Of a stretch of DNA of 40,543 nucleotides, positions 27,827 to 31,576 are shown one piece after another; the stretch's first letter is position 1, and each line of letters starts with the position of its first letter. The translations under genes and the position numbers were made by a program. Below the pieces are notes generated by a model that saw only the letters and a program-made list of their open reading frames with translations, was not told the DNA's origin and searched no databases. Source of the stretch: Bacteroidaceae bacterium (GTDB lineage Bacteria > Bacteroidota > Bacteroidia > Bacteroidales > Bacteroidaceae); assembly GCA_017466325.1 (NCBI GenBank), contig JAFTUK010000016.1, positions 1 through 40,543 on the forward strand, in the 5' to 3' direction.

Positions 27827-28885
27827 ATGGAGAAACTGGATATCGGATCGTACCGTAGGGTAAACGCCTCATTCCGCAAAAGGATGGTATATCGCATAGG
27901 CGTGGATTGCGGGTTCTTTGTGGAGATGAACTATATGGTGAATGCCATGCTTTATTACCTGACACACCGCATCAGGTTCCAACTATATTCGGAGGACGCC
28001 AATTTCGGCACCGGCATCGGGTGGACAGAATACTTCCTGCCCTTCTGCGAAGAGGTGCATGAGAAGTTCCACAAAAAGTACAATTTCCACAGGCTGCCGT
28101 CCTGGCGCAATATCCTGAGGCTCTGCCGCAGGCAGAAGTCCCTGGGGGCGATTGCATGGAAAGCGAAGTCGGGCATGAAAACCTTGACTGGCAGGTTGGC
28201 GTCCTTGTGGACTTACGGAGAAGCAGTATTCCTTTCGCAGGACGTTTCTTTGGAAGGGGTGCAGAGGTTCTGCGTCCCCGAACTTGGCATAGATGCCGAC
28301 TATATGAGTGCGTACAGCATGGTAGCACGCATGGTTTGGAGGTTTACACCGGAGATGATACGACTGGAAAACAGTTACAAGACCAAACTACGCCTGCCGT
28401 CCGTCTACTCCGCTGTGCAGATAAGGGGTGGCGACAAGATTACGGAGACGAGCCTGATAGACGGAAAGACCATTATAAGCAGATTGGAGTTTTGGAGTGA
28501 GGAGGCTTGCCTGTTCATCCTTACTGATGACTACCGCCAGTACCAGAAGGCTCTGGAGGATTTCCCAAACCTGAGGATTCTGACGCTATGCCAACAGGAT
28601 GAAAAAGGTTACTGTCACCAGCGTTTCTGCAATGAAGACCCCTCCAGCAAGAAGGATGCCATCCGCCGCCTTCTCGTCTCCGCAGACCTGCTGCTATCAA
28701 GCCATTCCTTTGTGGGAAGCATCACCACAGGGCCGAGTGTCTTCGTCATGAAGGTGAGGCACCGCGACCTGCTCGCTCAGGCCGTGGATTGCCCAAGGGA
28801 GGAACTGACTGCGGCATTGCGCCTCTCCATCAACGAACGCTCCACGATATCCACCGAATACCTCAGCAGACATGCTACCAGGTAA
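27827..28885 (+). CDS. GT23-like glycosyltransferase (fucosyltransferase fold)
   Basis: A 352-residue protein with no signal peptide. Residues 198-204 (QIRGGDK) match the nucleotide-sugar-binding HxRRxDK-type motif of alpha-1,6-/peptide-O-fucosyltransferase relatives (GT23, NodZ group). The later FILTDDYRQYQKALEDFPN and LLLSSHSFVGSITTGPS stretches follow that family's order, in which the last motif contacts the donor. The donor is therefore probably GDP-fucose, but this is inferred from weak similarity. The N-terminal RIGVDCGFFVEMNYMVNAMLYYL resembles their opening segment. It ends convergently with, and overlaps by 11 bases, the sigma/barrel gene on the other strand. No other glycan-synthesis gene is adjacent, so its acceptor is unknown. 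Confidence 0.62.
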   Translation: MEKLDIGSYRRVNASFRKRMVYRIGVDCGFFVEMNYMVNAMLYYLTHRIRFQLYSEDANFGTGIGWTEYFLPFCEEVHEKFHKKYNFHRLPSWRNILRLCRRQKSLGAIAWKAKSGMKTLTGRLASLWTYGEAVFLSQDVSLEGVQRFCVPELGIDADYMSAYSMVARMVWRFTPEMIRLENSYKTKLRLPSVYSAVQIRGGDKITETSLIDGKTIISRLEFWSEEACLFILTDDYRQYQKALEDFPNLRILTLCQQDEKGYCHQRFCNEDPSSKKDAIRRLLVSADLLLSSHSFVGSITTGPSVFVMKVRHRDLLAQAVDCPREELTAALRLSINERSTISTEYLSRHATR

Positions 28886-30572
28886 TCCTGATACCGAACG
28901 GACATGTGAACATTACAGGATGTTCCGTCCATACGGTACGTGTTTCACCGCCAGAGGGTATGAACCAGTTGAACGTGGGTTCGGCGAATATGCTGGTATG
29001 TGGAGCAAACCTGTACTGAACTCCAACACTCACACCCATCTGCCATTGCAGAGAGGGTGTGAAGGTGCTGTTCTCCGTCAGAACCGTCTGCCAGTCAACA
29101 ATGTAGTCGCTCTTGGTCTTTCCATATACGGGTATGTGCATCGTTACTCCCATGGAGGTGTATGCCGACAGCCCTCTGTATGATACCCAATAATAGGACA
29201 CACGAAGCGGTATGCCGAGATAGTGCACGCTCTGTTTGTCAACGACAGAGTATCCGCCCTCGCCCATGGAGAATGTGGATTTGAGCAGAGAGTACTGTAT
29301 GCCGGTTTCCACTCCCCATCTCTTTCCGAGCGTTCTTGCAAACGACACGCCGAACGTAATGGGACTGGAGTGCTGTTCCCTTTGCTCTATCTTGCCCGTG
29401 TTGTGTGCGGAAATCTTACTGAGGGCAGAAATCCTGGCTGTGTCTCTGTGGAAAGGAAACATGTTTAGGTAAGAGGAATACTCTTCCCATGTGCTTACAT
29501 GGTCGGGTAACGCCAAGGATGCGCTGTCTGGTTCTGGCAGCATGGACGTGCCTACGGCAATGAGTCTGTTACCGCTTTGTGCCAGAGCAGAACCTATTGA
29601 ACCAGTGAGGCGGAAGTGCCACTTGGTGCCCTTCGTCAGAAAGAGTTCCGGAATATTGTTCCGGGGCATGAGGATTGTTCTTGACAAAGTGTCCTTAACA
29701 TTGGTTTCCATCAAATCCTCCTCTGTTTCTACAATCAAAGGTTTTTCGATGGCGACAGGCGGAAGGACAACGGCAACGGAATCAGAATCTTGCGGCAAGG
29801 CCGTCTCTTCCATGTCTTCTGCCGATGCCCGACAAACCTCTATCATTACAACAATATCCGCAGGCAGAGTGTCTGCAACGATTTCCTGTTCCTCCACAGT
29901 GCTATCTGGCGGCAAGATATGCGGGCGCACATGCCGTTGTCCGACATCAACAACCTTCTCCCCTTTGCGCCACCCAATGTGTCTGACAATCAGACTCCAT
30001 GCCAGAGGAACCATCAACACAATCAGCACCCAGATTGTACCGCCCTCTATCATACGCCTGAGCATACGCTTGGCGCGAGACAACTGCGACGAGGAACTAT
30101 GCGGTGCGATGCCCAGCATGTCTGCTATCTCCTTGTGTGAGAAGCCCTCTACGACCGACAGATGCAATATCTTTCTGTATCCATCGGGCAGGAGGTTAAC
30201 CAGTCCGAGCAGTTCTTTGTAGTTAAGGTCGGCATCGGGCGTGGAAACGGCATCCGCCATCAACGCGTCCTCCTCACTGACAGAGGATATGGGCAACAGG
30301 TGCATCCTGTTCCTCTGTTCCACATGCTTCAGTGCCACGTTCCTGACTATGGTGGTCAGCCATTCGCTGAACTTGTCATTGTCCCTCAGGTTCCCCAACG
30401 ACACGAATGCCAGGATAAAGGCATCGTGCACGAGGTCGTCGACCACGGTGCTGTCCTCCTTGACAATGTTCATGCATATCCCCGCCATCTTGGGACGGTA
30501 CGCTCTGTATAATATATCAAAGGCCTTGGCGTCCTTCTCCTTTGCTCTCTCTACTACTGTGTATAGTTCCAT
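28875..30572 (-). CDS. ECF sigma factor fused to inner-membrane helix and outer-membrane beta-barrel
   Basis: One uninterrupted 565-codon frame. Residues about 15-90 form sigma region 2 (AFDILYRAYRPKMAGICMNI, DDLVHDAFILAF, FSEWLTTIVRNVALKHVEQR). Residues 118-170 are region 4 with its helix-turn-helix (LPDGYRKILHLSVVEGFSHK, then EIADMLGIAP, then SQLSRAKRMLRRM). Residues 179-198 (TIWVLIVLMVPLAWSLIV) are a single transmembrane helix followed by basic residues. Residues 200-315 are acidic, Pro-rich and low in structure, suitable for spanning the periplasm. Residues 316-565 alternate like a small eight-stranded outer-membrane barrel (RWGVETGIQYSLLKSTF, YLGIPLRVSYYWV, MGVSVGVQYRFAPHTSIFAE) and end in Trp, as barrel proteins do. 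Bacteroides dual membrane-spanning anti-sigma proteins have a similar helix-linker-barrel layout, but their sigma factor is a separate protein. No anti-sigma domain is visible here. Confidence 0.88.
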   Translation of the reverse strand: MELYTVVERAKEKDAKAFDILYRAYRPKMAGICMNIVKEDSTVVDDLVHDAFILAFVSLGNLRDNDKFSEWLTTIVRNVALKHVEQRNRMHLLPISSVSEEDALMADAVSTPDADLNYKELLGLVNLLPDGYRKILHLSVVEGFSHKEIADMLGIAPHSSSSQLSRAKRMLRRMIEGGTIWVLIVLMVPLAWSLIVRHIGWRKGEKVVDVGQRHVRPHILPPDSTVEEQEIVADTLPADIVVMIEVCRASAEDMEETALPQDSDSVAVVLPPVAIEKPLIVETEEDLMETNVKDTLSRTILMPRNNIPELFLTKGTKWHFRLTGSIGSALAQSGNRLIAVGTSMLPEPDSASLALPDHVSTWEEYSSYLNMFPFHRDTARISALSKISAHNTGKIEQREQHSSPITFGVSFARTLGKRWGVETGIQYSLLKSTFSMGEGGYSVVDKQSVHYLGIPLRVSYYWVSYRGLSAYTSMGVTMHIPVYGKTKSDYIVDWQTVLTENSTFTPSLQWQMGVSVGVQYRFAPHTSIFAEPTFNWFIPSGGETRTVWTEHPVMFTCPFGIRITW

Positions 30573-30678
30573 CTGTCAACAGGGGCAATGATTACGTGTA
30601 CAGCCTTTATACATATAGATACTTAATCACGCCAAAAGACTGCATCATGCCCGTCCGTCCACCATATCATTCCGACTG

Positions 30679-30686: not shown

Positions 30687-30853
30687 CGGAAATGCTATTG
30701 GAAACACATTACGCCAGTCTGTGAAATTGTTATCGTGCGCCAAACTTTATCTCACTCATCATCTTATACGTCCCATGGTTATTCCCTTAAAGGTTTAGGA
30801 CTTTCCTCCGCATCATTCTGCTTTTTCCTCATAAGAACGTGGACGGAGTTGCA

Positions 30854-30861
30854 TATCTTTG
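30854..30861 (+). promoter_or_regulatory. -7 box of the lipoprotein/DUF1232 unit
   Basis: TATCTTTG with no clear -33 element. It lies downstream of an in-frame ATG at 30839, which rules that start out. The lack of a housekeeping -33 box could fit use of an alternative sigma factor; this is speculative. Confidence 0.66.
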
Positions 30862-30925
30862 CAACAGAAGAAATAAAAACTACAACAGGACCAAACCTGA
30901 AAACCTAAACAAGGAGGACATTGAT

Positions 30926-31576
30926 ATGAAAAGAAGAACCTTACTCGGAAACATCTGCATAATGATGGTTGCTCTGCTCGGCATGAGTTCGTGCAACGTG
31001 GTATGGAACATGGATGAGGACATGGACGTGCACCAGTCCATTAAGTTTGCAGGGCAGTGGACGGGCGACTTCGGCATGTACTACAACTACCGCCACAACG
31101 GACGTCTCTATACCTTCGACTCCTACGACACGGACATAGTATTCTATCCAGAATACGACGGGGCCACCTATGGCTACGGCAAGCAGGTGGACTACTACGA
31201 GCGCGGTCCCTACACCCACATCTACAACCGCTTCGATTGGGAGATACGCAACGGCGTAATCTATCTGGAATACTATAGCGACCCAAGTCTGGACTGTGCC
31301 ATCTACGACTACAAGATGACCCCGGACCGTTTCCAGGGACGCTTCGGAAGCAGCAGCGACAGGTTCTACCTGACGAAGATAGCCGACTACTACGACTGGA
31401 CGGTCTACATGGACTACTGTTACTATTACCCCAATAGCGGTTGGTACTGGTCGCCGATGTACGCCATGGAAAACGGAAAGGTGAAAACGGAAAACGGAAA
31501 GGAAAACGTAGAACAGGAATCTGAAAAGGGATTAAACGAAGAGGACGGCATAGTGTCCTATGGTAAGAGGATGTGA
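30926..31576 (+). CDS. Lipoprotein with a repeat-derived C-terminal tail
   Basis: A 216-residue lipoprotein of unknown function. The start ATG 30926 is preceded by AAGGAGG (30911-30917), an unusually strong Shine-Dalgarno for this group. The signal peptide ends in GMSSC. The mature part is rich in Tyr, Asp and Trp (KFAGQWTGDFGMYYNYRHNG, TDIVFYPEYDGATYGYG, RFDWEIRNGVIYLEYYSD, DRFQGRFGSSSDRFYLTKI), like a small beta-sandwich or lipocalin-like fold. Residues 182-216 are hydrophilic (ENGKVKTENGKENVEQ), and their first part is encoded by the purine-rich repeat found elsewhere after stop codons. The original gene probably ended near YWSPMYAM. It is divergent from the sigma/barrel gene and followed by a DUF1232 gene. 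Confidence 0.8.
   Translation: MKRRTLLGNICIMMVALLGMSSCNVVWNMDEDMDVHQSIKFAGQWTGDFGMYYNYRHNGRLYTFDSYDTDIVFYPEYDGATYGYGKQVDYYERGPYTHIYNRFDWEIRNGVIYLEYYSDPSLDCAIYDYKMTPDRFQGRFGSSSDRFYLTKIADYYDWTVYMDYCYYYPNSGWYWSPMYAMENGKVKTENGKENVEQESEKGLNEEDGIVSYGKRM
31468..31507 (+). repeat. GGAAAACGG repeat read as coding sequence
   Basis: Bases 31468-31493 are identical to 26287-26312. Here the repeat is in frame and encodes ENGKVKTENGKEN in the lipoprotein tail. Confidence 0.85.

Follow-up and report, generated by a model that had tools for sequence, protein, structure and literature searches.

Can one polypeptide hold a sigma factor at the inner membrane and connect it to the outer membrane with no anti-sigma domain in between? 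The question is raised by a gene at positions 28875–30572 of a 40,543-nucleotide stretch (the window; contig JAFTUK010000016.1, positions 1–40,543, of assembly GCA_017466325.1) from a Bacteroidaceae bacterium. The gene encodes, in a single frame, an extracytoplasmic function (ECF) sigma factor, a membrane helix, an acidic linker and a C-terminal barrel. From its sequence and that of its relatives, the product is best read as a membrane-tethered sigma factor that controls its own gene and a narrow, mostly adjacent regulon. As a protein of the Dma3 type, it would have exchanged the anti-sigma segment of Dma proteins for an ECF sigma factor; the chain would extend from the cytoplasm to the outer membrane, and a cut in the periplasm would free the sigma factor to act on its own gene and on output genes. 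A probability of roughly 0.6 is assigned to this mechanism. The features on which it rests are as follows.

28875..30572, minus strand: sigma-helix-linker-barrel gene of the Dma3 type, 565 aa, ATG starting at 30572 and stop at 28875–28877.
30306..30512, minus strand: ECF sigma region 2, residues 21–89 (Pfam PF04542, Sigma70_r2, E = 2.1e-10).
30060..30215, minus strand: ECF sigma region 4, residues 120–171 (Pfam PF08281, Sigma70_r4_2, E = 4.4e-12).
29985..30035, minus strand: inner-membrane helix, residues 180–196 (hydropathy 2.65; same spacing in an 87-protein alignment).
29628..29975, minus strand: periplasmic linker, residues 200–315 (acidic, proline-containing composition and length in relatives).
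28878..29627, minus strand: C-terminal barrel region, residues 316–565 (Pfam PF13568 and alternating-hydrophobicity peaks, a crude measure).
30618..30644, minus strand: putative ECF-type promoter, with the -35 element TGCAGTCTTT at 30635–30644 and the -10 element TATC at 30618–30621 (conservation, genome-wide search and position).

All three Pfam domains exceed their curated cut-offs, with the barrel match (OMP_b-brl_2, PF13568) covering residues 391–521 at an E-value of 8.4e-9. A simple hydropathy scan found one clear hydrophobic stretch after region 4 (residues 180–196, mean 2.65) and weaker peaks of 1.6–1.7 at residues 43–59, 231–247 and 265–281. Both analyses agree with an earlier note on this DNA, which had described a single frame with sigma regions 2 and 4, one helix and a barrel ending in tryptophan (Trp565). 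Its coordinates also hold; the strand, which it did not state, is minus. The acidic, proline-containing linker that it put at about 115 residues measures 116, with 19.8% Asp/Glu and 8.6% Pro, a composition that fits a tether. The barrel region has perhaps eight strands. Among the best 25 of 83 NCBIfam matches, generic ECF sigma models were found and only the superfamily model TIGR02937 was above its cut-off, and a search of solved structures with the full profile returned only ECF or other sigma chains and none for the barrel.

The architecture is known in kind: the sigma factor is N-terminal in Dma3 of Bacteroides thetaiotaomicron. Dma3 is encoded at the bt_2778-2779 locus, its sigma factor is its own N-terminal domain and there is no adjacent ECF21 sigma gene (PMC13088901). 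The window protein, compared with Dma3 by published description only, likewise has a sigma domain (PF04542 and PF08281) at the N-terminus of a Dma protein, and the two-gene locus of Dma3 is frequent among its relatives. The same paper describes the role of Dma3 as largely unknown and states that little more is known about it. A second paper lists BT2778, with the annotation of a sigma-70 family factor, among iron-responsive genes (PMC10434189). The fusion is thus not supported as new. A literature search found Dma3 in PMC13088901 alone (two versions), and a search for BT_2779 returned only an unrelated chemistry paper. What is added here to the Dma3 kind is a conserved family, the loss of the anti-sigma segment, a promoter block, and a matching copy of that block before output genes. 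The anti-sigma loss, the single clade, the promoter block and the output genes were not found in the literature searched, although the founding PNAS 2024 paper on Dma may hold some of them.

The fused protein has full-length matches of 27–96% identity in many relatives. From these, 108 fused frames were collected, of which 98 are distinct and 87 represent the family at 90% identity; many of the relatives are metagenome assemblies and are not independent of one another. Of 399 genomes sampled across the family, 97, from 16 of 30 genera, matched at E ≤ 1e-30, and the matches listed were mostly frames of about 490–670 aa with a few short ones. Genus g27, with genomes of up to 7 Mb, was matched in 38 of 99 genomes at E ≤ 1e-20; fused frames were found there in seven (G443, G450, G514, G517, G518, G521 and G524) and broken ones in G134 and G062, while 19 of 21 further loci from this genus (L177–L197) are split pairs of separate sigma and Dma-like genes. 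An order-wide sample gave 76 of 393 genomes at E ≤ 1e-24, most of them matched only in the sigma part. Beyond the family of the window, fused frames were confirmed in two families (L243–L245 and L247); a third candidate, G856, coincides in its coordinates with L063, a locus within the Prevotella part of the tree. A plasmid collection gave 353 matching records, none covering 80% of the query, and three of the best four are annotated as two separate features with the fourth lacking annotation.

A maximum-likelihood tree of the sigma domain was calculated from 85 of the 87 fused representatives (those whose sigma piece reached 150 aa), from the 41 split pairs in which a barrel was matched and from five other sigma factors of the same genome; it excludes the later-fetched loci L243–L247. 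All 85 fused sequences, including those from genus g27, fall on one side of a branch with support of 100/99. The sister group of this clade consists of 23 split sigma genes, from the same order, which adjoin separate Dma-like genes. In the 42 fused sequences used for a motif alignment, HSSSSQL and RA are invariant within the region 4 motif HSSSSQLxRAK, with small departures seen in L165 and L245. The C-terminal residue is Trp or Phe in 57 of 57 fused open reading frames (ORFs) of the first set; of those added later, L130, L142, L165 and L172 end otherwise. The linker is the least conserved part, with a length of 79–138 aa across the 87 relatives.

These data bear directly on whether the frame is an assembly or annotation artefact, or a fusion in decay. 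Frames are indeed broken or interrupted in some relatives (L152/G289, L153/G134, L154/G062 and L246/G802), and G210 and G214 each have one stop inside the matched region. For the window gene this explanation has next to no probability and is already refuted as far as sequence allows. A second assembly, from a Bacteroidaceae bacterium of water deer colon (L037), contains this frame at the identical length of 1698 bases, with 53 substitutions but no indel, and an indel at the junction in other strains, which the earlier note had singled out as the observation that would split the gene in two, is not what this locus presents. An indel or junction artefact is ruled out by the 98 distinct fused proteins together with the intact L037 frame, and the promoter block described below is conserved as well. 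Between the window gene and L037, the ratio of nonsynonymous to synonymous substitution rates (dN/dS) is 0.20 overall, 0.06 in the sigma part and 0.19 in the barrel; the 0.76 of the linker comes from just seven changes. Seven further pairs gave 0.06–0.21 for the sigma part, 0.07–0.14 for the barrel and 0.20–0.64 for the linker. The ratios of the fused gene indicate purifying selection.

What became of the anti-sigma domain can be followed by comparison with the split loci, where the Dma-like gene begins near the sigma stop or overlaps it. In 41 split Dma-like proteins, a few of whose predicted starts may be too early, the helix begins at residue 45–88 (median 56) and is preceded by a loose Pro...Trp motif (P..xW) in 35. 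The fused barrel is homologous to the barrels of these proteins (L021, E = 4.1e-27; others weaker). The gap between region 4 and the helix in 57 fused ORFs is -7 to +8 residues, and in the alignment the spacing is three residues in 87 of 87 proteins. For L167, an automated helix call gave a gap of 51, while the sequence itself has the helix directly after region 4. As judged from the sequences, the Dma anti-sigma segment is absent from the fused proteins and the sigma part occupies its place. The suggestion that region 4 and the helix have no anti-sigma domain between them is therefore borne out in all relatives examined, in which region 4 abuts the helix; the sequence also supports the proposals that the sigma factor itself is tethered and that the plan resembles that of the Dma anti-sigma factors. 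Control of the sigma part by a separate, unlinked anti-sigma factor, with an independent role for the barrel, appears very improbable. None of the 22 largest neighbour-gene clusters from the 87 loci looked like such a factor, with no dedicated domain search having been made, and the fused chain has been kept as one clade over many genera.

A block of the form TGCAGTCTTT-N~12-TATC or GGAC lies upstream of the fused genes, with its first base 49–143 bases ahead of the start codon (median 53; 72 in the window). In the upstream regions of 85 of the 87 fused representatives, TGCAGT is found in 81, TGCAGTCNTT in 72 and TGCAGTCTTT in 69; single-base shuffles gave means of 2.65 of 85 for TGCAGT and 0.03 for TGCAGTCTTT. 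Among 45 split sigma upstream regions, which include some without a barrel-matching neighbour and one doubtful pair (L080), TGCAGTCNTT occurs in none and TGCAGT in 8. Five loci from four genomes of two other families were fetched after the motif had been defined, and the block is upstream in all five; in L247 it is seen as far as TGCAGTCTT, where the listed ORF begins. Several split sigma genes (L177, L178, L180, L184 and others) carry a cousin block, TGCAGTATTT...GCATTT, upstream. Since the split genes carry this cousin, autoregulation may predate the fusion.

The block is also kept between the window and L037 though the DNA further upstream is unrelated. Synteny with this 96%-identical locus ends at the block (window ~30600–30645 and upstream against L037 1–2970), and the upstream DNA of L037 matches the starts of contigs C12 and C44 of the window's genome. 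The break is either a rearrangement or a mis-join.

A second copy of the block was found in 61 of 86 loci (of the 87) within the region from 120 bases before to 400 bases after the fused stop. The reversed motif and the opposite strand each gave 0 of 86 and the region further downstream 9 of 80; none of 23 split Dma-like genes has a copy behind it. In the five later-fetched loci, two have the second copy. The -10 types of the two copies vary together: of 49 loci, 18 are GGAC/GGAC, 18 are ATC/ATC, 2 are mixed and 11 are unclassified. The fused gene is probably switched on by its own product, as is the neighbouring gene, from matching promoters. The earlier interpretation stands for the tethering and the Dma-like plan and falls for the novelty; it had missed both the conserved block and its copies before neighbouring genes.

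The source assembly of the window (2.59 Mb, 56 contigs, 88% complete) yielded four matches to a looser pattern, three with TATC, against one for the reversed pattern. One match is the fused gene itself. Another starts 60 nt upstream of a methyltransferase start codon; this gene is unlinked to the fused gene, but members of its family are neighbours of fused genes elsewhere. The third site is unclear, with no gene start close behind it (G000:C46:45942), and the match at C42:45142, apparently within a gene, was taken as chance. In 32 genomes hand-chosen from those bearing fused genes, with a preference for the TATC-type -10, a stricter TATC pattern gave 53 matches against 5 for its reverse; 41 of the 53 are no more than 1.1 kb from a fused gene, 12 are elsewhere and 4 of the 32 genomes have none.

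The fetched loci contain 158 distinct motif matches, counts that are not genome-wide because the loci were mostly chosen around fused genes. Fused genes are preceded by 73 of them, a lipoprotein-like family by 27, a class I S-adenosylmethionine (SAM) methyltransferase by 17 and a radical SAM/SPASM protein by another 17. Five precede a secreted protein with a sub-threshold match to the lamin-tail domain (LTD), three a family that also has a member at 27827–28885 of the window, and nine are singletons that include a GT2 glycosyltransferase and an acyltransferase; seven have no gene close behind. The lipoproteins, with the single glycosyltransferase and acyltransferase, point tentatively to a cell-envelope response. 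The LTD-like cases comprise L222 (1–1437, minus strand) and four other matches.

From these data a working model may be proposed. At rest, the helix next to region 4 would pin the sigma factor to the inner membrane and the barrel would anchor the chain in the outer membrane, with a tether so close to region 4 doing the job of an anti-sigma factor. The periplasm is 20–25 nm wide, and the linker may be taken to span it because it has at least 79 residues in all 87 aligned proteins. A disturbance of the outer membrane or of barrel assembly would cause the chain to be cut first in the periplasm and afterwards within the membrane; this RseP-like sequence of cuts is the likeliest release route, and an M50 protease is present. 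Once free, the sigma factor would transcribe its own gene, in a positive feedback loop, together with one output gene or a few. The output would be a methyltransferase here, and lipoproteins, methyltransferases, radical SAM enzymes or, singly, a glycosyltransferase or acyltransferase in relatives. A one-protein switch across the envelope, in which the tether wholly replaces an anti-sigma factor, the anti-sigma segment having been lost with the fusion, is put at about even odds; in this reading the protein would amplify itself from its own promoter and drive a tiny and exchangeable output from a copy of that promoter, the -10 elements of the two staying in step.

Several points weigh against this model. 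The use of the block by the fused sigma factor is inferred from conservation and co-variation, and the Fisher test of the -10 pairing (38 of 49 loci, p = 6e-9) is overstated because the relatives are not independent. The second copy was not found in 25 of 86 loci within the region tested, nor in three of the five later loci; the downstream gene in the window is convergent and lacks the motif; and the 12 of 53 matches away from fused genes mostly have no clear target. M50 proteases are present in 14 of 14 control genomes too, and no conserved cleavage motif was seen in the linker sequences of the relatives. Finally, the outer-membrane signal would be carried over by analogy from papers on Dma and Reo.

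The missing cleavage motif would fit a sigma factor that works while still tethered. Like membrane-bound one-component regulators, it would need no cleavage, and pull or relaxation of the linker would merely alter how RNA polymerase reaches it; the constant spacing between region 4 and the helix, as if geometry mattered, fits this as well. It would be sterically awkward, however, for a holoenzyme to work while region 4 is held at the membrane, and the tethered factor would have to reach a putative target that is unlinked to its gene. This mode of action seems unlikely.

For the two-gene relatives Reo and Dma, control of the sigma factor has been shown with mutants and envelope stress has been proposed as the signal (PMC13088901, PMC9308784, PMC13114119). 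In EcfO-Reo of Bacteroides fragilis and Phocaeicola vulgatus, the anti-sigma factor is said to span all five compartments and to be a likely sensor of outer-membrane stress, and the sigma gene is up 33-fold on BcpT treatment (PMC9308784, PMC13114119). Unlike the fused protein, EcfO-Reo is encoded by two genes, and NigD and O-antigen outputs are reported for it there. The strong induction of EcfO-Reo by BcpT and Bd-A, together with the inhibition of BamA by bacteroidetocin A reported in those papers, would also suit an assembly timer, in which the sigma factor is active or cut only while the barrel awaits insertion and reports on the capacity for outer-membrane assembly, with autoregulation as a homeostatic loop. 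A barrel that mostly ends in an aromatic residue and an autoregulatory-type promoter block are consistent with such a timer. It is a special case of the model of a freed, self-activating sigma factor and differs from it in the signal only; as a specific proposal it is doubtful.

Other systems resemble the fused protein in part. With the ECF21 pairs Dma1/Das1 and Dma2/Das2 of B. thetaiotaomicron it has in common the helix, long tether and C-terminal barrel of the Dma protein; unlike it, they consist of separate sigma and Dma genes with an N-terminal anti-sigma domain in the latter. The ECF52 sigma factors of Streptomyces (SCO4117) similarly combine an ECF sigma factor and extra domains in one protein. 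ECF52 sigma factors have membrane helices; unlike the fused protein, they have a zinc-finger domain, a Gram-positive host and no outer-membrane barrel. Pro-sigma-K of Bacillus subtilis is a membrane-tethered sigma factor that is freed by an intramembrane protease, but its tether is N-terminal, it has no barrel and its regulation is unrelated. The promoter block and the co-located genes make the Dma3 class directly testable, and from this class one could learn whether tethering alone holds a sigma factor off, which event at the outer membrane releases it and what role the output enzymes have.

Two genes flank the fused gene in the window. The convergent gene at 27827–28885 (plus strand) overlaps its 3' end by 11 bases, and its product has no Pfam or NCBIfam match. 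Relatives of this gene in L040, L064 and L212 run in the same direction as the fused gene and are preceded by the promoter block, which is absent at the window's own copy. On the other side, a divergent putative lipoprotein gene at 30839–31576 (plus strand) has no Pfam or NCBIfam family match. It was considered as a partner and set aside, as it lacks a family match and the near-identical L037 differs in the DNA upstream of the block. Another barrel of this kind (G000:C2:185-754, L002; 37% identity) lies outside the window near a contig end, and its sigma part, if any, was probably cut off by the contig edge.

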